Shown in pieces: positions 33,291 to 43,141 of a stretch of DNA of 64,000 nucleotides (positions within the stretch are counted from its first letter, which is position 1; each line of letters starts with the position of its first letter). Source of the stretch: Acidobacteriota bacterium. GTDB taxonomy: Bacteria > Acidobacteriota > Thermoanaerobaculia > Gp7-AA8. The stretch is taken from positions 124,001 through 188,000 of the forward strand of contig JAFATB010000023.1 in NCBI GenBank assembly GCA_019244185.1, given 5' to 3'. Below the pieces are notes generated by a model. The model ran no database searches. It was not told where the DNA came from and saw nothing but the letters and a program-made list of their open reading frames with translations. The translations under genes and the position numbers were made by a program.

Positions 33291-33297
33291 GTAGTAT
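33291..33297. promoter_or_regulatory. Overlapping divergent -10 boxes (PQQ dehydrogenase / gamma-glutamyltransferase)
   Basis: Only 20 bp separate the two ATGs (33284 minus, 33305 plus). The plus strand reads TAGTAT (33292-33297), 7 nt from its ATG; the minus strand reads TACTAC over 33296-33291, 6 nt from its ATG. The two hexamers overlap by five bases, so one AT-rich patch probably opens for both directions, making two leaderless transcripts. Confidence 0.6.
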
Positions 33298-33304
33298 GCA
33301 AATC

Positions 33305-35242
33305 ATGAGACCGCGCGCCATTGCCTTGCTGCTCGTTTCCGCCGCGATCGCCGTTCCGTCGTTCGCGCAGCGCACGCAGAAGCCGCCGCTGCATGGCGCG
33401 CACTGGATGGCCATCACCGGCAAGCCGCTCTCCGCGACCGCGGGCGCGATGATGTTTCAGAAGGGCGGCAACGCCGTCGACGCGGCCGCCGCGATGCTGG
33501 CGGCCGTCTGCACGCAGTGGGACACGCTCTCGTGGGGCGGCGAGACGCAGGCGCTCATCTACAACCCGCACACGAAGAAGGTGATCGGCATCGACGCGCT
33601 CGGCGTCGCGCCGACCGGCGCCACCGCGCAGTACTACCTCTCGAAAGGTCTCAAGGTGCCGCCGGAGTACGGCCCGCTCGCCGCGCTGACGCCCGGCACG
33701 CCGGGCGGTCTCATGACGATGCTGGCCGAGTACGGGACGCTGTCGCTCAAAGACGTGCTCGCGCCGGCGATCCAGATGGCGGACGGCTTTCCGATCGAGG
33801 CGCAGCTGGCGAGCACCATCGAGAAGAACAAGTCGTGGCTCAAGCAGTGGCCGTACTCGCGCACGACGATGCTCACGCATCTGCGCGACGCGAACGCGAG
33901 CGCATCAGCGAGCGCAACGACCGCGTCGACGCAAAGCAGCGTGACGCCGGCGCACGACGTCGTGGGCGGCGCGGCGTCGTCGCCCGCATCGACGCGCGAG
34001 GCGCCGGAGCCGGGCGAGATGTTCCACCAGCCCGAGCTCGCGGCGACGCTGCGCAAGCTCGTCGACGCGGAGCAGCAGGCCTTGAAGCGCGGCAAGTCGC
34101 GCAAGGAAGCGATCTACGCCGCGTATGACCGTTTCTATAAGGGCGACATCGCGCAGGAGCTCGCGCGCGGGACGCAGGAGCAGGGCGGTCTCATCACGAC
34201 CGACGATCTCGCGCGCTGGCAGGTGAAGATCGAAGAGCCGGTGATGACGAACTATCGCGGCGTCGACGTCTACAAGCTCACCGTCTGGACGCAGGGTCCG
34301 TCGATGCTGCAGGCGCTGAACATCCTCGAGAACTTCGATCTCAAGTCGATGGGCTACAACAGCGCGCGCTACATCCATACGCTCTATCAGGCGCTCAACC
34401 TCGCGTACGCCGATCGCGACTTCTACTACGGCGATCCGTACTTTCCGCCGGCCGAGCCGGTGCGCGGACTGCTGTCGAAGGACTACGCGCGCGAGCGCGC
34501 GAAGCTCGTCAATCCCGAGCGCAACGATCCGAACATCGGACCCGGCGATCCGTATCCGTATCAGAACGAGAAGAATCCGTTCCTCGACACGCTGCGCGAC
34601 TGGAACGCGACCGCGGCAAAACCGGTCGCGAGCTTCGAGCGCTTTCACGAGCAGTTCCTCGCCGGCACGACGTCGATCGAAGCCGCGGACGAGGAAGGGT
34701 GGGTCGTCTCCGTCACGCCGAGCGGCGGCTGGGTTCCCGCGGTGATCGCGGGGCACACGGGCGTCGGTCTCTCGCAGCGCGCGCAGAGCTTCGACACCGA
34801 TCCGAAGCAGAACCCGTTCAACGTGATCGAGCCGGGCAAGCGCCCGCACGTCACGCTCACGCCGACGCTGGCGATGAAGAACGGCGCGCCGTTCCTCGCC
34901 TTCGCCGTGCAGGGCGGCGACACGCAGGACCAGAACCTTCTGCAGTTTTTCCTCGACGTCGTCGAATTCGGCATGACCCCGCAGGAAGCGACCGAGGCCG
35001 CGAACTTCAACACGTTCCAGGTGCGCAAATGGCTCGGCGACCGCCAGTCGGTTCCCGGCCGCATCCTCCTCAACGACCAGACCCCGCCGTGGGTGCGCGG
35101 CGAACTGCAGAAGATGGGCTACACGCTGACGTTCGAAGACCGCACGTCCGGCCCCATCAACGCGATCGAGTTCGACCAGAAGCACGGCACCATGTGGGGA
35201 GGGAGCTCGAATCATGGGGAGGACTATGGGATTGGATGGTGA
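33305..35242 (+). CDS. Gamma-glutamyltransferase-like protein, secreted
   Basis: A 645-residue protein with a signal peptide (MRPRAIALLLVSAAIAVPSFAQ). The Ntn-hydrolase fold is visible: GGNAVDAAAAMLAAV, GTPGGLMTMLAEYGTLSL in the large subunit, and the expected autoprocessing site GTTSIEAAD with catalytic Thr about 455. The usual third residue His of TTH is Ser here (457), and the lid/GxG part reads VTPSGGWVPAVIAGHTGVGLSQR, so it belongs to a divergent branch. Residues 197-237 are a Ser/Ala/Thr-rich insertion. Typical members hydrolyse glutathione or transfer its gamma-glutamyl group in the periplasm. Confidence 0.83.
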   Translation: MRPRAIALLLVSAAIAVPSFAQRTQKPPLHGAHWMAITGKPLSATAGAMMFQKGGNAVDAAAAMLAAVCTQWDTLSWGGETQALIYNPHTKKVIGIDALGVAPTGATAQYYLSKGLKVPPEYGPLAALTPGTPGGLMTMLAEYGTLSLKDVLAPAIQMADGFPIEAQLASTIEKNKSWLKQWPYSRTTMLTHLRDANASASASATTASTQSSVTPAHDVVGGAASSPASTREAPEPGEMFHQPELAATLRKLVDAEQQALKRGKSRKEAIYAAYDRFYKGDIAQELARGTQEQGGLITTDDLARWQVKIEEPVMTNYRGVDVYKLTVWTQGPSMLQALNILENFDLKSMGYNSARYIHTLYQALNLAYADRDFYYGDPYFPPAEPVRGLLSKDYARERAKLVNPERNDPNIGPGDPYPYQNEKNPFLDTLRDWNATAAKPVASFERFHEQFLAGTTSIEAADEEGWVVSVTPSGGWVPAVIAGHTGVGLSQRAQSFDTDPKQNPFNVIEPGKRPHVTLTPTLAMKNGAPFLAFAVQGGDTQDQNLLQFFLDVVEFGMTPQEATEAANFNTFQVRKWLGDRQSVPGRILLNDQTPPWVRGELQKMGYTLTFEDRTSGPINAIEFDQKHGTMWGGSSNHGEDYGIGW

Positions 35243-35247
35243 GTCAA

Positions 35248-35376
35248 AAGCTGAATGAAGAACGCAGAACGCAGAATGAAGAATTGAGAAAAGGAGAGAG
35301 CGCGCGCTTTGCGCGCGCGCCGTTGGTCCTCATTTCTACGTTCTTCATTCTGCGTTCTGCGTTCTTCATTCAGCTT
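35248..35376. repeat. Heptad-arm palindromic repeat, copy 1
   Basis: The arms 35248-35283 and 35341-35376 are perfect reverse complements (36 of 36). Each is built from 7-nt steps of AGAAYGM type (AGAACGC, AGAACGC, AGAATGA). The 57-nt loop ends in TTGAGAA and TTTCTACG, which copy 2 shares, and contains a second small hairpin (GCGCGCGC-TTT-GCGCGCGC). It lies just behind the gamma-glutamyltransferase stop and ahead of the epimerase gene. Confidence 0.9.
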
Positions 35377-35413
35377 CTAAATCCAGTTTCCCGCCGCACG
35401 CGTACCGTCTGGC

Positions 35414-36085
35414 ATGAACGTCTTCCTCACCGGCGCCTCCGGCTACCTCGCCTCCCGCCTCATCCCCGAGCTTCTCTCGCGCGGCCACACCGTGCGCGGG
35501 CTCGTGCGGCGCGGTTCGGAGCGGAAGCTGCCGCGCGGCGCGGAGGCGGTCGTCGGCGATGCGCTCGATGCGTCGACGTACTCGCATGCGATCGCGCCGT
35601 CCGACACGTTCGTGCATCTCGTCGGCGTCGCGCATCCGTCGCCGGCGAAAGCGGCGGAATTCCGGAGCATCGACCTGGTGTCGATCCGGCAGGCCGTCCA
35701 TGCGGTACGCGGGAGTTCCGTCCGGCATTTCGTCTATCTCTCCGTCGCGCAACCCGCGCCGGCGATGTGCGAGTACGTCGCCGTGCGAGCGGAAGGGGAG
35801 CGGCTCGTGCGCGACAGCGCTCTCGCCGCGACCTTCGTCCGCCCGTGGTACGTCCTCGGCCCCGGCCACCGCTGGCCCTACCTGCTGCTCCCTGCGTACT
35901 GGATCTGGGGCGCGTTTCCGTCACAGCGCGACACCGCGCGCCGGCTGTATCCCGTGAAGCTCGCCGACGTCGTGCGCGCGATGGCCGACGCGATCGAGCA
36001 TCCGCCGAGCGGCGTGCGCGTCATCGAGGCGCCGGAACTGCGCGCGCGCGAGCCGCTCACGCCGGCACGCGTCGTCACGACATAA
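35414..36085 (+). CDS. NAD(P)H-binding SDR-type protein (NmrA/epimerase-like)
   Basis: A 223-residue protein. ATG 35414 follows TACCGT (35403-35408) by 5 nt. The Rossmann motif TGASGYLASRL is at 6-16 with R33-R34 in VRRGSERK, which suggests NADP binding, and a GDALD strand end. The catalytic YxxxK is absent: the usual position reads VYLSVAQPAPAMCEYVAV, with a Ser and a Tyr but no clear Lys. It is short for an extended SDR and may be a regulatory or atypical reductase. The substrate is unknown. The heptad palindrome copy 1 lies immediately upstream. Confidence 0.8.
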   Translation: MNVFLTGASGYLASRLIPELLSRGHTVRGLVRRGSERKLPRGAEAVVGDALDASTYSHAIAPSDTFVHLVGVAHPSPAKAAEFRSIDLVSIRQAVHAVRGSSVRHFVYLSVAQPAPAMCEYVAVRAEGERLVRDSALAATFVRPWYVLGPGHRWPYLLLPAYWIWGAFPSQRDTARRLYPVKLADVVRAMADAIEHPPSGVRVIEAPELRAREPLTPARVVTT

Positions 36086-36126
36086 CGCGTCCCGACGTTC
36101 GCGCGCGCAACGCCGTATCAACGGAC

Positions 36127-36756
36127 ATGCATCGCGCCACACTCGTCCTGCTCGTTCTCCTGCTCGCCGCGTTGCCGGCATCGGCCGGCTGGTGGCCGTC
36201 GTTCAGTCCGCGCACGCTGCAGCTCGAGGTCGGCGATCAGACGTCGGTCGAGGTGCATGCGGTGTGGAGTGGCCTCGTCGACTACGGCAACGGCATCCAC
36301 TGGACGTTCCGCAGCGACGACTCATGGGTGGCGACGGCGAACGCCAGCGTCAACGATCAGGGCTCGCACCTCGTGCCGATCGAGGCGGTCGGTCCGGGCA
36401 CGGCGCGCATCTGTCTCGGCAACAGCGGCGACTCGTGCTACGTCACGATCTTCGTTCGCTGCGGCGAGGAAGCGCCCGTGCGCGCGGCGCAGCCGGTCCT
36501 GCGCGCCGAACTGCACCAGCCGGTGACGCTGTCGGTGGTCACGCCGATCGCGCAGCGCACGCACTTCACGTGGTTCCGCGGCCGCATGGGCGACCGCTCG
36601 CAGCCGCTCGACGCCGCGAGCGCCGAGATCACGTTCGCGCCCGACGCGTACGACGCGCAGTACGTTTGGGTCTCTGCCGTGACGTCGTGCTCGACGAGCA
36701 GCGCGGAGTTCCGCATCGACGTGCCGCGTCCGCGCCAGCACGCGGTGCGTCACTAA
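36127..36756 (+). CDS. Secreted beta-sandwich protein, function unknown
   Basis: A 209-residue protein with a signal peptide (MHRATLVLLVLLLAALPASAG). ATG 36127 lies 5 nt after TATCAA, consistent with other starts here. The mature part begins SFSPRTLQLEVGDQTSVEV, has paired Cys (ICLGNSGDSCYVTIFVRC and VSAVTSC) and looks like two Ig-like domains, the first resembling BIG2-type bacterial Ig. It overlaps the convergent pilT gene by 4 bp (CTAA shared by both stops). The family is not recognised. Confidence 0.75.
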   Translation: MHRATLVLLVLLLAALPASAGWWPSFSPRTLQLEVGDQTSVEVHAVWSGLVDYGNGIHWTFRSDDSWVATANASVNDQGSHLVPIEAVGPGTARICLGNSGDSCYVTIFVRCGEEAPVRAAQPVLRAELHQPVTLSVVTPIAQRTHFTWFRGRMGDRSQPLDAASAEITFAPDAYDAQYVWVSAVTSCSTSSAEFRIDVPRPRQHAVRH

Positions 36757-37970
36757 CGCGACGTACGCAACACCGACTCGAGCTCGTCGGGCCGCGACGA
36801 GCGCACGCGCGCGTCGTCGATCGTGATGAGGCCGTCCGCGACGAGCTTCGCCAGTGAGTCTTCGAGCGAGATCATGCCCTGCCGCTTGCCGAGCGTGATC
36901 TCCGTGGCGAGGTTCTGCAGGCGCTCGTTGCGGATGTGATTGCGCACGGCCTGATTCGCGAGCAGCACTTCCACGGCGACGGCGCGGCCCTGATTGTCGG
37001 CGCGCGGAATCAGCTGCTGCACGACGATGGCGTTGAGGCTGAGCGCGAGCTGTTGCTTGATCTGCGTCTGCTGCGCCGGCGGGAAGACGTCCACAATGCG
37101 ATGGATGGCCTGCGCGGCGTCGCTCGTGTGCAGCGTCGAGAGGATCAGATGTCCCGTCTCCGCGGCGGTGAGCGCGGTGGCGACGGTCTCGAGGTCGCGC
37201 ATTTCGCCGACGAGGATGACGTCGGGATCCTGCCGCAGCGACGCGCGCAGCGCCGCGGCGAATGAAGGCGCGTCGCGTCCCACTTCAACCTGCTCGATGA
37301 TCGACTTTGCGTTGCGGTGCTCGTACTCGATCGGGTCTTCGATCGTGATGACGTGCCGCGCGTCGTTGCGATTCACCTCGCCGACGAGCGCCGCGAGGGT
37401 CGTCGACTTGCCCGAGCCGGTCGGGCCGCAGACGAGCACGAGTCCGCGCGTCGGCTTCACCAGTTCGCCGAGCGCCGGCGGCAGACGCAGTTGCGTGAGC
37501 GTCGGCACTTCCGTCGGCAGCGCGCGCACCGACGCCGCCCACGTTCCACGCTGCCGGTGCACGTTGACGCGGAACCGCCCCGCGCGCCGGTCATCCTCGG
37601 ATGCCGGGCCCGCGAGCCGCAGCGAGAAGTCGGCGGCGCCTTCCGCGTCGATCTTCTCGCGCAGCCGCAACGTCAGAAGGCTGCCGAGGAGATTGTGGAT
37701 GTCGTCGGAGGTGAGCGGAGCGTCGGCCGTGCGCGCGAGACGTCCGCCGACGCGCAGCACCGGCGGCACACCGGCGACGATGAGCAGATCGCTCGCGCCG
37801 CGCTGCGCCATGTCGATGAGCAGCTTCTCGAGCGGATTCCCTTCCGCGACGGTCGCGGACGGCCACGCCGCCGCCGGAGTGGCGGCACGCGCCTCGTCGG
37901 GCGCCGGCTCGACGTCGTTGAGCTCGCGCACGAGCTGCTCGAGTTGCGGATCGCGAATCAGCTTGGCCAT
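36753..37970 (-). CDS. pilT: PilT/PilU-like type IV pilus retraction ATPase
   Basis: A 405-residue GspE-family ATPase. ATG 37970 begins the natural N-terminus; an upstream in-frame start at 38000 adds ten residues. The PAS-like N-domain is followed by Walker A GPTGSGKST (182-190), the Asp box region ITIEDPIEYEH, Walker B DPDVILVGEMRD, and the His box ILSTLHTSDAAQAIHR. The ATPase pulls pili for twitching motility or DNA uptake. About 40 residues between the N-terminus and GNPLEKLL are acidic and Ala-rich, longer than in E. coli-type PilT. No other pilus genes are adjacent. Confidence 0.92.
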   Translation of the reverse strand: MAKLIRDPQLEQLVRELNDVEPAPDEARAATPAAAWPSATVAEGNPLEKLLIDMAQRGASDLLIVAGVPPVLRVGGRLARTADAPLTSDDIHNLLGSLLTLRLREKIDAEGAADFSLRLAGPASEDDRRAGRFRVNVHRQRGTWAASVRALPTEVPTLTQLRLPPALGELVKPTRGLVLVCGPTGSGKSTTLAALVGEVNRNDARHVITIEDPIEYEHRNAKSIIEQVEVGRDAPSFAAALRASLRQDPDVILVGEMRDLETVATALTAAETGHLILSTLHTSDAAQAIHRIVDVFPPAQQTQIKQQLALSLNAIVVQQLIPRADNQGRAVAVEVLLANQAVRNHIRNERLQNLATEITLGKRQGMISLEDSLAKLVADGLITIDDARVRSSRPDELESVLRTSR

Positions 37971-38087
37971 GCGCTCTCGTGTACGAACGAAGCGTGCCAC
38001 AGGTCACGCCGCACGTTCACCGCTCGTTTGCCGCGCGCGGTTTCGTTTCGCGGAACGCGGGGGTCGAACGATGACGAGGAGGAAGTC

Positions 38088-38861
38088 ATGTTCGAGACCT
38101 CAGTCATCCGCGCCCAGGCCGCCGCAGCACGAGGCCGCGTTCCGCTGCTCGGCATCTCCATCGTCGCGCACAGCGCCGTCGTGATCGGCGCGGTCGCGGT
38201 CAGCATCGCCTCCGTCAGCTTCCCCATGCACGCGCCGAAAGAGTTCGCGCGCGCGCCGCTGCTGATGCAGGTCAGCGTTCCGCCGCCCCTCGGCAATCCG
38301 AACGCCGGCGCGCCGCACAAGCCGCAGCAGCCGCAGCCCGCGCAGAAGCCGCAGACGCCGCCGCCCACCGCGATCACCGCACCGCCACAGACGCCCGCGA
38401 CCATCACGCCCGCCGCGCAGCCGCCATCGACCGCGTCGAACGATGCGCCGGCCACCGGCAGCGGCACCGAATCCGGCCCCATCGGCCAGCCGTGGGGCGT
38501 CGCCGGCTCGCTGGGCGATCTCGATGCGCCGCCCGCGACGTCCACGATTCCCGCGACGCCGCCCGTCGAAGAGCGCGTCTATCGGGTCGGTGAAGTGAAA
38601 GCGCCCGTGCTGCTGCGCCGCGTCGAGCCGACGTATCCGCCGATGTTCGTCCGCGCGCACATGCCGGGCAAAGTCGCGCTGCACTGCATCATCGACAAGA
38701 ACGGACGCGTGCGCGACGCGCAGGTCGTGTTCGCGACGAACAGCGCGTTCGCCGACGCCGTGCTGCGCTCACTCGACGGCTGGCGCTACACGCCCGCGTC
38801 GCTGCACGGCGAAGCGGTGGATTGTTACCTCGATCTCTCCGTCGACTTCGGCGTGCACTGA
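38088..38861 (+). CDS. TonB-like energy transducer protein
   Basis: A 257-residue protein. ATG 38088 has GAGGAGG about 5-6 nt upstream. An N-terminal membrane helix (VPLLGISIVAHSAVVIGAVAVSIASVSF) is followed by a Pro/Gln/Lys-rich periplasm-spanning linker (KPQQPQPAQKPQTPPP), then a TonB C-terminal domain (residues about 170-255: PVLLRRVEPTYPPMFVRAHMPGKV, then ALHCIIDKNGRVRDAQVV). TonB transmits proton-motive force to outer-membrane receptors. ExbB/ExbD genes are not in the window. Two TonB-C paralogues occur elsewhere here (14964 and 61520). Confidence 0.87.
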   Translation: MFETSVIRAQAAAARGRVPLLGISIVAHSAVVIGAVAVSIASVSFPMHAPKEFARAPLLMQVSVPPPLGNPNAGAPHKPQQPQPAQKPQTPPPTAITAPPQTPATITPAAQPPSTASNDAPATGSGTESGPIGQPWGVAGSLGDLDAPPATSTIPATPPVEERVYRVGEVKAPVLLRRVEPTYPPMFVRAHMPGKVALHCIIDKNGRVRDAQVVFATNSAFADAVLRSLDGWRYTPASLHGEAVDCYLDLSVDFGVH

Positions 38862-38877
38862 TGTACGGAAGCGGCGC

Positions 38878-39807
38878 TCATGACTCCGGCGCCACTTCAT
38901 CCGCGGACACGATCGGCGGCTTCGACCACGACGTCACGTACACGACGCCGACGATGCCGCCGATCGTGAGCAGCGAGCCGAAGGCGGCGAGCGCGGTGAT
39001 CGGCTCGTGGATGAGCGTCGCGCCGAGGATCATCGAGACGATGACGGCGAGCTGCGAGATCACGCCGACCGTCATCGCGTCGACCCAGCGCAGCGAGAAC
39101 GTGAGCAGCAGCTGCGCGGCGATGGCGAAGAGCGACGTCGCCGCGAGCGAGGTCCACTCGTCGCCGCGCGGCGTCTGCCACGAGGAGATGCCGCCCGGCG
39201 CCGTCGTGAAGAGACCGAGCAGGCAGAAGCTCGCATAGACCGCCCACGAGTTCTCGCCGCGCCGCGCCGCGCGCATCGCCGTCACCGCCACGCCCGACGA
39301 AACCGCCGACATCACGCCGACGAGCTCCCACCGTCCGAAGCCGAGGATGTCGCCCGGCTGCGCGTGCGCATGCACGACGAGGAAGACGCCGGCCAGTGCG
39401 ATCGGCGCGGGAATCAGCACCTTCGCGCTGATGCGCTCTCCAAGAAAGAGCATCGAGAAGATCCCGCTGAAGAGCGGCGCGGTGTAGTTGAGGAGCGTGG
39501 CCACGCCGACGCTGATGTGCGCGATGGCGATGAAGTAGCAGAGCACCGCGATCCCGCCGAAGAAGCCGCGCAGGAACAGGAGGTCGAGCCGCTGGAACGT
39601 GAGCGCGCTGCGGCGGTAGCGCGGCACGAGCAGCGCGGGCAAGAGCCCGACCGCGAAGCGGATCATCGCCACCTCGGAACCGGACAGCCGCGCCGAGGCG
39701 AGCTTCGCCGCGAATGCCATCGCGCCGAAGCACGTCGCCGATGCGGTCATGAGCAGGAGCGCGCGCTGCGTCGCGCGCACGTCGCGAGGCGGATTTGCTA
39801 TCGTCAA
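38878..39807 (-). CDS. EamA/DMT family transporter
   Basis: A 309-residue integral membrane protein with about ten hydrophobic segments in two EamA halves (ALLLMTASATCFGAMAFAAKL and YTAPLFSGIFSMLFLGERIS; LVGVMSAVSSGVAVTAMRA and VISQLAVIVSMILGATLIHEP). The start is TTG 39807; GATAAT (39823-39818) lies 10 nt upstream with no Shine-Dalgarno. Drug/metabolite exporters of this family move amino acids or small metabolites; the substrate is unknown. Only 17 bp separate it from the divergent GNAT gene. Confidence 0.87.
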   Translation of the reverse strand: MTIANPPRDVRATQRALLLMTASATCFGAMAFAAKLASARLSGSEVAMIRFAVGLLPALLVPRYRRSALTFQRLDLLFLRGFFGGIAVLCYFIAIAHISVGVATLLNYTAPLFSGIFSMLFLGERISAKVLIPAPIALAGVFLVVHAHAQPGDILGFGRWELVGVMSAVSSGVAVTAMRAARRGENSWAVYASFCLLGLFTTAPGGISSWQTPRGDEWTSLAATSLFAIAAQLLLTFSLRWVDAMTVGVISQLAVIVSMILGATLIHEPITALAAFGSLLTIGGIVGVVYVTSWSKPPIVSADEVAPES

Positions 39808-39824
39808 CCGGGGGGAGATTATCC

Positions 39825-40292
39825 ATGAGCGAAGTGCTGGTGCGCGCCGCGAGTCGCGACGATGCGCCGACGATCGTCGCGTTTCAGCTGGCCATGGCGC
39901 GCGAGACCGAGGAGCTCGCGCTCGACGTCGACGTGCTCGCGCGCGGCGTCGAAGCGGTGTTCGCCGATCCGTCGAAAGGCCGCTACTTCGTCGTCGAATG
40001 CGACCGCGAGGTGGTCGCGTCGCTGATGATCACCTACGAATGGAGCGACTGGCGCAACGGCACCGTCTGGTGGATCCAGAGCGTCTACGTCCTTCCCGCG
40101 CAGCGCAAGCGCGGCCTCTACGCATCGCTGTACCGCCACGTCCAGTCGCTCATCGCCGATGACGCGAGCGTCCGCGGCATCCGCCTGTATGTGGACGAAC
40201 GCAACGTTCCGGCACAACAGGTTTACGCGAGGCTGGGGATGAATGGGGAACACTATCGCGTGTTCGAGTGGATGAAAGAGATGAAAAGCTGA
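39825..40292 (+). CDS. GNAT family N-acetyltransferase
   Basis: A 155-residue protein. ATG 39825 has GGGGGAG 8 nt upstream. The GNAT fold has strand SLMITYEWSDWRNGTVWWIQSVYVLP (motif A entry) followed by the acetyl-CoA loop AQRKRGLYASLYRHVQ (Q/RxxGxG/A-like, here RKRGLY), then GIRLYVDERNVPAQQVYARLGM. It transfers an acetyl group from acetyl-CoA to an unidentified amine. The stop codon TGA lies inside the left arm of heptad palindrome copy 2, so its last codons border the repeat. Confidence 0.88.
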   Translation: MSEVLVRAASRDDAPTIVAFQLAMARETEELALDVDVLARGVEAVFADPSKGRYFVVECDREVVASLMITYEWSDWRNGTVWWIQSVYVLPAQRKRGLYASLYRHVQSLIADDASVRGIRLYVDERNVPAQQVYARLGMNGEHYRVFEWMKEMKS

Positions 40293-40388
40293 ATGAAGAA
40301 TGCAGAACGCAGAATGAAGAATTGAGAAGGGGAGGCCGGTCCTCTTTCTACGTTCTTCATTCTGCGTTCTGCGTTCTTCATTCAGCCT
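40286..40388. repeat. Heptad-arm palindromic repeat, copy 2
   Basis: The arms are 40286-40321 and 40353-40388, reverse complements at 34 of 36 positions, and nearly identical to copy 1 at 35248-35376. The loop is only 31 nt, and shares the TTGAGAA start and TTTCTACG end with copy 1. The GNAT stop codon is in the left arm; the Shine-Dalgarno of the M16 gene begins right after the right arm. Confidence 0.9.
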
Positions 40389-40402
40389 CTAAAAGGAGTT
40401 CC

Positions 40403-43141
40403 ATGCGCCGCCTCCTGCTGATTTCCGTGCTCCTCGCCACCAGCGCGTTTGCGCTGCCTCCCAACGTCGAGCAGCTCGACACCTACAAAGGCGTCACGCA
40501 GTACCGGCTCAAGTCGAATCAGATGACGCTGCTCCTCGTGCCGGATCACACCAGTCCCGTGTTCACGTTCATGGTCGTGTATCACGTCGGCTCGCGGAAC
40601 GAGGCGCCGGGGAACACCGGCTCGGCGCATCTGCTCGAGCACATGATCTTCAACAAGTCGACCGAGCATTTCGGCCGCGCGAAAGGGCACAAGACGTTTC
40701 AGGAAGTGCTCTACGAGGCGGGCGCGGACTTCTCGTCGACGAACATGACCACGTGGTACGACCGGATGAACGGCTACTCGACGCTGCCGTCGGACAAGCT
40801 CGAGCTGGCGATGCAGATCGAGGCCGATCGTCTCGGCCGCGCGCTCATCATCGACACGGAACGGCAGTCCGAGATGTCGGTCGTGCGCAACGAGTACGAG
40901 ATCAGCGAGAACAATCCGTTTCAGGTGCTGCTGAAGTCGACCGTTGCCGCCGCGATTCAGGCGCACCCGTATCACTGGTCGACGATCGGCTACCGCTCGG
41001 ACATCGAAGGCGTGTCGACCGATCAGCTGCGCGCGCACTACAAGAACTTCTTCTGGCCGAACAACGCGGAGGCGGTACTCGTCGGCGACTTCGATCCCGA
41101 CGCCGCGCTGGCATTGTTCGATCGCGAGTTCGGCAGCTTCGCGCCGTCGCCGCAGCCGATCCCGCGCGTCATCACGGTCGAGCCGCCGCAGGAAGGGGAG
41201 CGCCGCGCGGTCGTGCAGCGTCCCGGCACGATCGGCATGGTGATGCTCGGCTACATGCGTCCCGGCGCGTCGCATCCCGACTTCATGCCGTTCGAGGTGC
41301 TCGCGTCGATCCTCAGCGACGGCGTCAACGCGCGGCTCAACCGCGCGCTCGTCGAGACGGGCCTCGCGACGAGCGTGAACGCGAACAACTTCGCGTTGCG
41401 CGATCCGTATCCGTTCCTCGTCGATGCGACGCTCGCCGGCGGCAAGACGCACGCGGAAGTCGAGAGCGCGCTGAAGGCCGCGCTCGCAGACGTGGCCACG
41501 AACGGCGTGACGGATGAGGAGCTGAAGCGCGCGCAGAAGCAACTCGAGCTCGCCGTCACGCGCGGCCGCGATGGCACTTACCAATACGCCGCGAACCTCG
41601 GCGAGGCGATCGCGTCCGCGAACTGGAAATGGTTCCTCGACTACGTCGACGCCGTCAACGCCGTGACGAAAGACGACATCAAGCGCGTCGCCGCGACGTA
41701 CCTCATCCCGAACCACGCCACCGTCGGCTGGTTCGTTCCGACCGCGAACACGAAGACCGCCGACGCCGCCGTTCCCGCGACGCCGGCCGCATCGCCCGCG
41801 CGCATCGGGAGCGCTTCGTCGACGGAGACGGCAACGACGAAGGCCGCGAAGCCCGCGCCGGCGAAGACCACCTTCGCGCAGCGCACCACGCATCGCGTGC
41901 TGCGCAACGGCATCACGCTCGACATCGTCGAGAACCACGCGCGGCCGACCGTCGCGCTGCGCGGCGTCGTCTTCGCGGGGGACACCGCGGCTCCGGCGAA
42001 TCAGCCCGCCATCGCCGCGCTCACCGCGAAGATGCTCGAGCGCGGCACGAAGACGCGCACGAAAGAAGAGATCGGACGGCTCATCGACGACGTCGGCGCG
42101 ACGCTCTACTTCACGCCGGCCGCGACGGAAGTCTCGATCGTCTCCACCGGCATGGCGCGCGATCTGCCGCTCGTGCTCGACGTCCTCGGCGACGAGCTGC
42201 AGCATCCGGCGTTCGCCGCCGACGAGCTGGCGAAAGCGAAGAAGGAGTACGAGACCGACGTGCTGCGCGCCGACGACAACACGTCGCAGCGCGCGATGGA
42301 GCGCCTGAACCAGCTCGTCTATCCCGAGGGGCATCCGTATCACCCCGCGGGGCGCGAGAAACTGCTCGCCAGTAGCAACGCCATCGGCGCGGAGCAGCTG
42401 CGCGCGTTCCACGCCGCGCACTACAACGGCGCGGGGCTGATCCTCGCCATCGTCGGCGACGTCGACACCGCGAAGACGATCGCGCTCGTCGAGAAGTTGC
42501 TCGGCGGTCTGCCGAAAGGCGAGCGCGTCTCATTCACGCAGCTCGCGCGCACGAATGCATCGACCGGCGGCGCGCGTGAGGCGCTCACGATGCGCGGCAA
42601 GGCCAACATGAACATCGTCATGGGATCGGCCAGCGGGTTGCGCCGCACCGATCCCGACTACGAGGCCGCGCTCGTCGCGAACGCCGCGCTCGGCCAGAAC
42701 GCGCTCTCCTCGCGCATCGGCAAGCGCGTCCGCGACACGGAGGGACTCTCGTACAACCTCTTCTCACGGTTCGGCGCGGATCTCATCGACGGCCTCTGGT
42801 ACGTCAACGTCAACGTCGCGCCGCAGAACCTCGCCAAGGCGATGCAGTCGACGCGCGAGGAGATCGACAAGTTCGCGCGCGAGGGCGTGACGGACGAGGA
42901 AGTCGCGGCGCAGAAGAGCTTCTTCGCCGGCAACTATCAGGTCGGCCTCGGCTCGAACGGCGGCATCGCGGCGGCGCTCGCGAGTGCGGAGAAGTACGGC
43001 TTCGGCCCGAAGTACCTCGACGAGTTCCCGGCGCGCGTGCGCGCGGTGACGAAGGATCAGGTCAACGCGGCCATGCGCGCGCATCTCTTCGCGGACAAAC
43101 TCAATCTCATCGTTGCCGGAGATCTGGAAAAGCTGCCGTAG
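40403..43141 (+). CDS. M16 family zinc peptidase, two-domain, secreted
   Basis: A 912-residue protein. ATG 40403 has AAAAGGAG 4 nt upstream and begins a signal peptide (MRRLLLISVLLATSAFALP). The first half has the inverted zinc motif HLLEH (76-80) and the downstream Glu (NEYE). A Pro/Ala/Thr linker (about 460-505) joins a second M16 half that lacks HxxEH (starts THRVLRNGITLDIVENHARP), as usual for the non-catalytic partner. Full-length fused M16 proteases of this type (pitrilysin/PqqL-like) act in the periplasm on peptides. It is the last gene before the peroxiredoxin. Confidence 0.92.
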   Translation: MRRLLLISVLLATSAFALPPNVEQLDTYKGVTQYRLKSNQMTLLLVPDHTSPVFTFMVVYHVGSRNEAPGNTGSAHLLEHMIFNKSTEHFGRAKGHKTFQEVLYEAGADFSSTNMTTWYDRMNGYSTLPSDKLELAMQIEADRLGRALIIDTERQSEMSVVRNEYEISENNPFQVLLKSTVAAAIQAHPYHWSTIGYRSDIEGVSTDQLRAHYKNFFWPNNAEAVLVGDFDPDAALALFDREFGSFAPSPQPIPRVITVEPPQEGERRAVVQRPGTIGMVMLGYMRPGASHPDFMPFEVLASILSDGVNARLNRALVETGLATSVNANNFALRDPYPFLVDATLAGGKTHAEVESALKAALADVATNGVTDEELKRAQKQLELAVTRGRDGTYQYAANLGEAIASANWKWFLDYVDAVNAVTKDDIKRVAATYLIPNHATVGWFVPTANTKTADAAVPATPAASPARIGSASSTETATTKAAKPAPAKTTFAQRTTHRVLRNGITLDIVENHARPTVALRGVVFAGDTAAPANQPAIAALTAKMLERGTKTRTKEEIGRLIDDVGATLYFTPAATEVSIVSTGMARDLPLVLDVLGDELQHPAFAADELAKAKKEYETDVLRADDNTSQRAMERLNQLVYPEGHPYHPAGREKLLASSNAIGAEQLRAFHAAHYNGAGLILAIVGDVDTAKTIALVEKLLGGLPKGERVSFTQLARTNASTGGAREALTMRGKANMNIVMGSASGLRRTDPDYEAALVANAALGQNALSSRIGKRVRDTEGLSYNLFSRFGADLIDGLWYVNVNVAPQNLAKAMQSTREEIDKFAREGVTDEEVAAQKSFFAGNYQVGLGSNGGIAAALASAEKYGFGPKYLDEFPARVRAVTKDQVNAAMRAHLFADKLNLIVAGDLEKLP

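Follow-up and report, generated by a model that had tools for sequence, protein, structure and literature searches.

Intergenic heptamer-arm hairpins in an acidobacterial genome as probable ORF-less members of an S23/IVP element superfamily

Intervening sequences (IVS) carrying an S23 ORF are found in the 23S rRNA of Coxiella, Leptospira and Brucella, and short, ORF-less forms are found in Salmonella. S23/IVP genes are common and structures of the protein have been solved; we know of no role for the family. In Coxiella, the 23S rRNA IVS contains an S23 ORF, has an inverted-repeat stem with GACAGAT heptamers and is cut by RNase III, and a mobility role for the IVS ORF was suggested earlier (PMC4990558). 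In Xanthomonas, intergenic GGGAATC heptamers form ~70 inverted pairs; most of the repeats occupy the same intergenic positions in two species, with variation in sequence and length (PMC4692102). Polymerase slippage has been proposed for heptamers, a proposal taken here as it is cited in PMC4692102. A search drawing mostly on literature outside subscription journals found no paper joining S23/IVP, the 23S IVS and intergenic heptamers.

Two palindromes in the window (the whole 64,000-nt stretch of DNA analysed here) share features with both systems. Their arms are built of 7-nt units and they lie between protein genes, and another member of their family in the same genome holds an S23/IVP gene in its loop.

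The hairpins of the window and their family

Recomputation confirmed 36-nt arms in both hairpins, perfectly complementary in copy 1 and with two mismatches in copy 2, and loops of unequal length whose outermost bases are common to both (Table 1). The 7-nt repeat also held: with 3 mismatches or fewer allowed, the window contains 15 matches to the unit trimer, against 0.03 expected. By the window gene calls both copies sit between plus-strand genes, and, as originally described, copy 2 holds the stop codon of the upstream gene, with the RBS-like motif of the next gene starting 4 nt past its 3′ arm. Pairing runs beyond the 36-nt core and is interrupted by a small mismatch inside the stem, where AATTGAG faces CTACGTT; the stem of each copy is thus ~42–51 nt long. 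The suggestion that these elements provide RNA hairpins stands for the predicted fold (z-scores of –12.3 and –13.4 for copies 1 and 2, vs. dinucleotide shuffles), but RNA-level selection was not seen, as the sense strand had no G.U bias (41 G.U vs. 32 A.C). A known RNA family was also rejected, as an Rfam search gave nothing at gathering score, with sub-threshold miRNA-like hairpins only.

Table 1. Coordinates of the hairpins, their neighbouring genes and related loci
Feature	Position	Strand	Remarks
Hairpin copy 1, ORF-less	35248..35376	.	palindrome and fold; extended pairing 35241-35383
Copy 1 5′ arm	35248..35283	+	purine-rich heptamers GAATGAA GAACGCA GAACGCA GAATGAA ...
Copy 1 loop, 57 nt	35284..35340	.	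edges AATTGAGAA / TTTCTACG and nested GC-rich hairpin GCGCGCGC..GCGCGCGC
Copy 1 3′ arm	35341..35376	-	complement of copy 1 5′ arm
Hairpin copy 2, ORF-less	40286..40388	.	palindrome and fold
Copy 2 5′ arm	40286..40321	+	includes TGA stop (40290-40292) of upstream gene
Copy 2 loop, 31 nt	40322..40352	.	between arms
Copy 2 3′ arm	40353..40388	-	followed by RBS-like AAAGGAG (40392-40398) of next gene
Gene 5′ of copy 1 (neighbour, outside element)	33296..35242	+	gene call
Gene 3′ of copy 1 (neighbour)	35414..36085	+	gene call
Gene 5′ of copy 2 (neighbour)	39825..40292	+	gene call; stop inside 5′ arm
Gene 3′ of copy 2 (neighbour)	40403..43141	+	gene call
Loops with nested GC-rich hairpin	G000 C2:117165, C7:297852, C7:303773, C26:364401, C26:397036		
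Loops with second palindrome	G001:C4:134958-135136 (L141), 214961-215134 (L145), G001 ortholog of C26:277396		
imuB-IVP-dnaE2 loci	L070:470-1010, L332, L324, L328		

The genome of the window (G000; 5.3 Mb, 26 contigs, 98.9% complete) holds a dispersed family of such elements. At up to 2 mismatches, the unit trimer gave 528 matches (258 + 270), and the reversed control gave none. In 1.24 Mb of the genome, read in stretches, 41 clusters were found, which scales up to an estimated ~170 hairpins. Placed with gene calls from a simple script rather than an annotation, 39 of the 41 are intergenic, in DNA that is ~93% coding. The original prediction of a dispersed palindromic family is thereby supported, and the alternative it had set against this, a local duplication, is not borne out by the genome-wide search. 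The 41 clusters showed no preference for tandem, convergent or divergent gaps; 8 lie between divergent genes, about a fifth, which equals the genome share.

A de novo scan for tandem units of 4–15 nt showed period 7 to be prominent, with 54 arrays and 15 inverted pairs under strict criteria, as compared with 4 arrays and no inverted pairs in a Markov control. Arms co-vary within elements (pairing 0.781 vs. 0.719, permutation p = 5e-4), and many copies end in AAAAGC...GCTTTT. A subset of loops has in common a nested GC-rich hairpin with ACGTG and CCACCAC flanks and a variable stem (Table 1).

Hairpin sites and units in a sister species

The sister species G001, of the same genus, has hairpins built from several units (GAAGGCA, GATGGCG, GAATTGT, GTGCTGG, GAAAGCA, AAGGATG, AAAAGGG, GAACGCA and 8-nt units). 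Among 73 conserved adjacent gene pairs, a hairpin was present in G001 only at 17, in G000 only at 2, and in both, with different units, at 3; a test for sharing beyond chance gave a Fisher p of 0.12. The sister-only sites are in line with the predicted spread of the family; the comparison is between species with ~66–89% DNA identity in the aligned flanks and is not polarised by an outgroup. The G001 counterpart of the copy 1 site carries a hairpin with GAAGGCA arms, and at the copy 2 site synteny breaks and no hairpin was seen in G001.

In the comparison of the two species, a typical insertion starts at a stop codon and ends ahead of the next start, and genes overlap at several element-free sites. 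Overlapping genes at many of these sites argue that the element-free state is ancestral there. Flanking target duplications, proposed earlier as a check, did not appear consistently between sites with and without the element; apparent duplications at two overlapping-gene sites (C26:277396 and 279774) were accompanied by no consistent pattern elsewhere. Arms have 5–7 units each (medians 6.3 and 5.7), and a fixed five-unit arm matching the S23 pentamer is not supported as a rule.

Other repeat structures were observed in the same species. One array (G001:C4:236917-237187, L146) runs to ~33 heptamer units of mixed type, the usual number being 5–7. The loops of several G001 heptamer hairpins contain a second palindrome, GTCATCCTGAG...GAAGGATCTCGAAAT... 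(Table 1), and look as if one element had been inserted in another. Another family of long palindromes, AGTTTATCCCGCGCGAGAGACGCGGGATCTC..., is intergenic and without heptamers (G001:C4 near 197746, L144, and the G001 ortholog of C26:310507).

S23/IVP genes and the arms around them

One family member in G000 (C2:178732-179163, L193), located between imuB and dnaE2, has arms near-identical to those of the window copies and a loop of ~370 nt that holds a 120-codon gene (C2:178770-179132). The gene belongs to the 23S_rRNA_IVP family (S23, “four helix bundle protein”; PF05635, 1.9e-20; TIGR02436, 1.7e-25), and a genome-wide profile search found no other PF05635 gene in G000. An AlphaFold model of the protein (pLDDT 93.5) matches 2rld and 2gsc, two structures of the S23 family, with a weaker match to the DGR protein Avd; IVP has no recognised catalytic domain. 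The window copies and the IVP loci share the inverted-repeat heptamer stem of the IVS, and in G000 the S23/IVP ORF is confined to the C2 member, the window copies being ORF-less. Short non-coding copies that share arms with a gene-bearing element, as in MITEs, are found in G000 (L193) and in G001 (7/7 tested); the gene shared is S23/IVP, not a transposase acting on the ends.

The IVP gene between imuB and dnaE2 is orthologous across four genera (Table 1). Its arms consist of GAACGCA in G000 and G011 and of GAAGGCA in G001; genome-wide, the GAAGGCA trimer has 3 exact matches in G000, 0 in G011 and 118 in G001. G001 retains some GAACGCA hairpins, so turnover there is incomplete. The place of this IVP is kept while the arm units change, which is unusual for a selfish element. 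For all 7 G001 IVP genes tested, the arms recur at least 3 times on contig C4, which has none of these genes, as compared with 12 of 115 foreign arms (p = 7.5e-7). A similar picture came from three genomes of other phyla: each has dispersed copies of the arm unit of its own IVP, and most of the other genomes lack that unit, although the matches cluster on one contig in G044 and on two in G041. The correspondence has exceptions: no matching IVP was found, among those read, for the ORF-less GATGGCG and AAAAGGG units of G001, and G008 is rich in AGAAYGM hairpins with no IVP found, perhaps reflecting its draft assembly.

Arms of this kind accompany IVP genes widely. Among the relatives, an inverted repeat encloses each of the 27 IVP loci for which full flanks were available; in 24 the period is clearly 7 or 8 nt, and most loci have their own unit. 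Applied to Y1 loci, the test gave 0/22, and applied to random short genes 3/374, a count that includes the IVP gene itself. Further IVP loci agreed in 35 of 40 cases. In a scan of named genomes that spanned many phyla, inverted repeats were present at 45 of 74 IVP loci (43 of period 7 or 8 and 1 of period 9), the other 29 falling under the repeat threshold, vs. 2 of 141 control intervals. On viral contigs the figures are 25 of 38 loci, 24 of them periodic, vs. 0 of 69 controls. Read along the sense strand of the ORF, the G-rich arm is the 5′ one in 81 of 92 cases (p = 2.5e-14). No 23S motif was found in the IVP loci scanned, and 20 loci gave no Rfam match. Similar IVP proteins (DLVAFQRA...) in several genera (L341, L343, L346, L351 and L356) have arm units of 8 rather than 7 nt, and an 8-nt-unit IVP element of Granulicella mallensis (L234), by the look of its sequence, apparently sits between the two phenylalanyl-tRNA synthetase genes.

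Co-specificity of protein and unit was considered and rejected. Between genomes, the two are correlated (Mantel r = 0.19, p = 2e-4), but pairs above 60% identity account for the signal, which vanishes between the relatives and the named and viral set (r = 0.016, p = 0.24) and therefore reflects co-inheritance rather than specificity. Similar units also stand beside very different IVP proteins (L338 and L299).

Interpretation and comparison with known systems

We consider it likely that the window hairpins belong to a superfamily of small selfish IVP/S23 elements that includes the 23S IVS, and that they are among its non-autonomous, ORF-less (MITE-like) representatives. Read from sequence, this case comprises shared arms, intergenic sites, element-free sister sites, an association of IVP with such arms across phyla, and hairpins that track the arm type of the resident IVP. 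The full-length form would consist of a purine-rich tandem-heptamer arm, an IVP/S23 gene of ~120 codons and a complementary arm. The IVP protein may recognise these arms, either in RNA or in extruded DNA, and could act in trans as a helper for the spread of ORF-less copies. Insertion may borrow host replication or repair, a step proposed because G000 has no transposase or reverse transcriptase of the kinds tested: RVT_1 (PF00078) was absent from G000, G003, G004, G007, G008 and G013, several of them repeat-rich relatives, and a reverse-transcription route was rejected on this ground. Members that landed in rRNA would be the 23S IVS, and those in mRNA would be tolerated between genes, the hairpin probably being cut by RNase III by analogy with IVS RNA.

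The same hairpins could instead be binding sites of a host regulatory network, with IVP as an RNA-binding regulator and with recombination or selection, not selfish behaviour of the DNA, as the cause of their spread. We regard this as unlikely. Strand-polar arms, co-variation of arms within elements and the tracking of the resident IVP arm type would all fit a regulator, as would the one IVP locus kept over four genera, whose conserved place is atypical of a purely selfish element and counts against our preferred reading. However, 17 of the 22 element-bearing conserved gene pairs carry the hairpin in the sister species only, and neither a bias among gap types nor a sense-strand G.U bias accompanies the hairpins. 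Quite improbable, in our judgement, is an origin by replication error alone, in which slippage expands the 7-nt units, template switching perfects the palindromes, no element-encoded factor takes part and IVP is a passenger. The slippage origin cited in PMC4692102 for heptamers, the variable unit number, the homogenised arms and the G001 array of up to 33 units speak for it, but it does not account for 36-nt arms that recur, near-identical, by the dozen at sites with no relation to one another, for the bracketing of IVP genes in many phyla or for hairpin units that match resident IVPs.

A family of REP/RAYT type, mobilised by a Y1 transposase, would also be palindromic, intergenic and of high copy number, and the original prediction had called the elements MITE/REP-like. 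The MITE-like part is retained in dispersed palindromes, but the search for a TnpA-REP transposase removed the REP part: PF01797 has no match in G000, which has the most copies yet lacks the gene at 98.9% completeness, a higher Y1 count does not go with more copies over 18 family genomes (rho = –0.39, p = 0.11), and the Y1 loci of relatives lack the periodic-arm bracket. This leaves the REP/RAYT explanation highly improbable. Bidirectional terminators or mRNA-stability hairpins are suggested by the AAAAGC...GCTTTT ends, but divergent gaps are not depleted, sites differ between sister species and loops vary, so that such a role is very hard to credit.

Membership of the IVP/S23 superfamily, if correct, has wider meaning. 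The ~170 elements with IVP-matching arms suggest that very small mobile elements of a class so far largely overlooked are found across bacteria. A stronger version, which we put forward tentatively as somewhat short of probable, is an undescribed, widespread class without its own transposase, in which S23/IVP recognises its own inverted arms of tandem 7- or 8-nt units and drives, in trans, the spread of ORF-less hairpins in bacteria, archaea and their viruses, the 23S IVS and intergenic heptamers being its two faces. The origin of the 23S IVS is a decades-old question, and intergenic heptamers have been reported separately without explanation; the link would tie both to S23/IVP. With it, the protein acquires a candidate ligand in its own arm, the hairpins that it should bind can be predicted, and the old proposal that the IVS ORF serves mobility is opened to direct test.

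Among known systems, the DGR accessory protein Avd has a four-helix-bundle fold as in IVP, and G000 is without an RVT_1 reverse transcriptase. REP/REPIN elements with TnpA-REP (RAYT) are likewise high-copy intergenic palindromes; the arms here are tandem heptamers and there is no Y1 transposase. MITEs resemble this family in being short and non-autonomous and in having the same inverted repeats as a full-length, gene-bearing copy elsewhere in the genome, but here the shared gene is not a transposase and target duplication is not consistent. The TAACTGA direct repeats of Beggiatoaceae (PMC4679880) and the tandem heptanucleotides of Calothrix are also intergenic heptamers scattered over phyla, but form direct arrays, almost never inverted, for which a helper gene was not proposed. 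The Xanthomonas GGGAATC repeats share 7-nt units, inverted pairs and intergenic location with the window family and differ in their unit, in being described as G-quadruplex and in having no S23/IVP link in the text (PMC4692102). Closest is the 23S IVS, which, like the full-length form, has an inverted-repeat stem with an S23/IVP ORF in its loop and, in Coxiella, heptamers as well (PMC4990558); unlike it, the elements here lie between protein genes in ~170 copies, and their unit turns over between species. The window elements are thus IVS-like rather than strict IVS, as they are located outside 23S rRNA genes.
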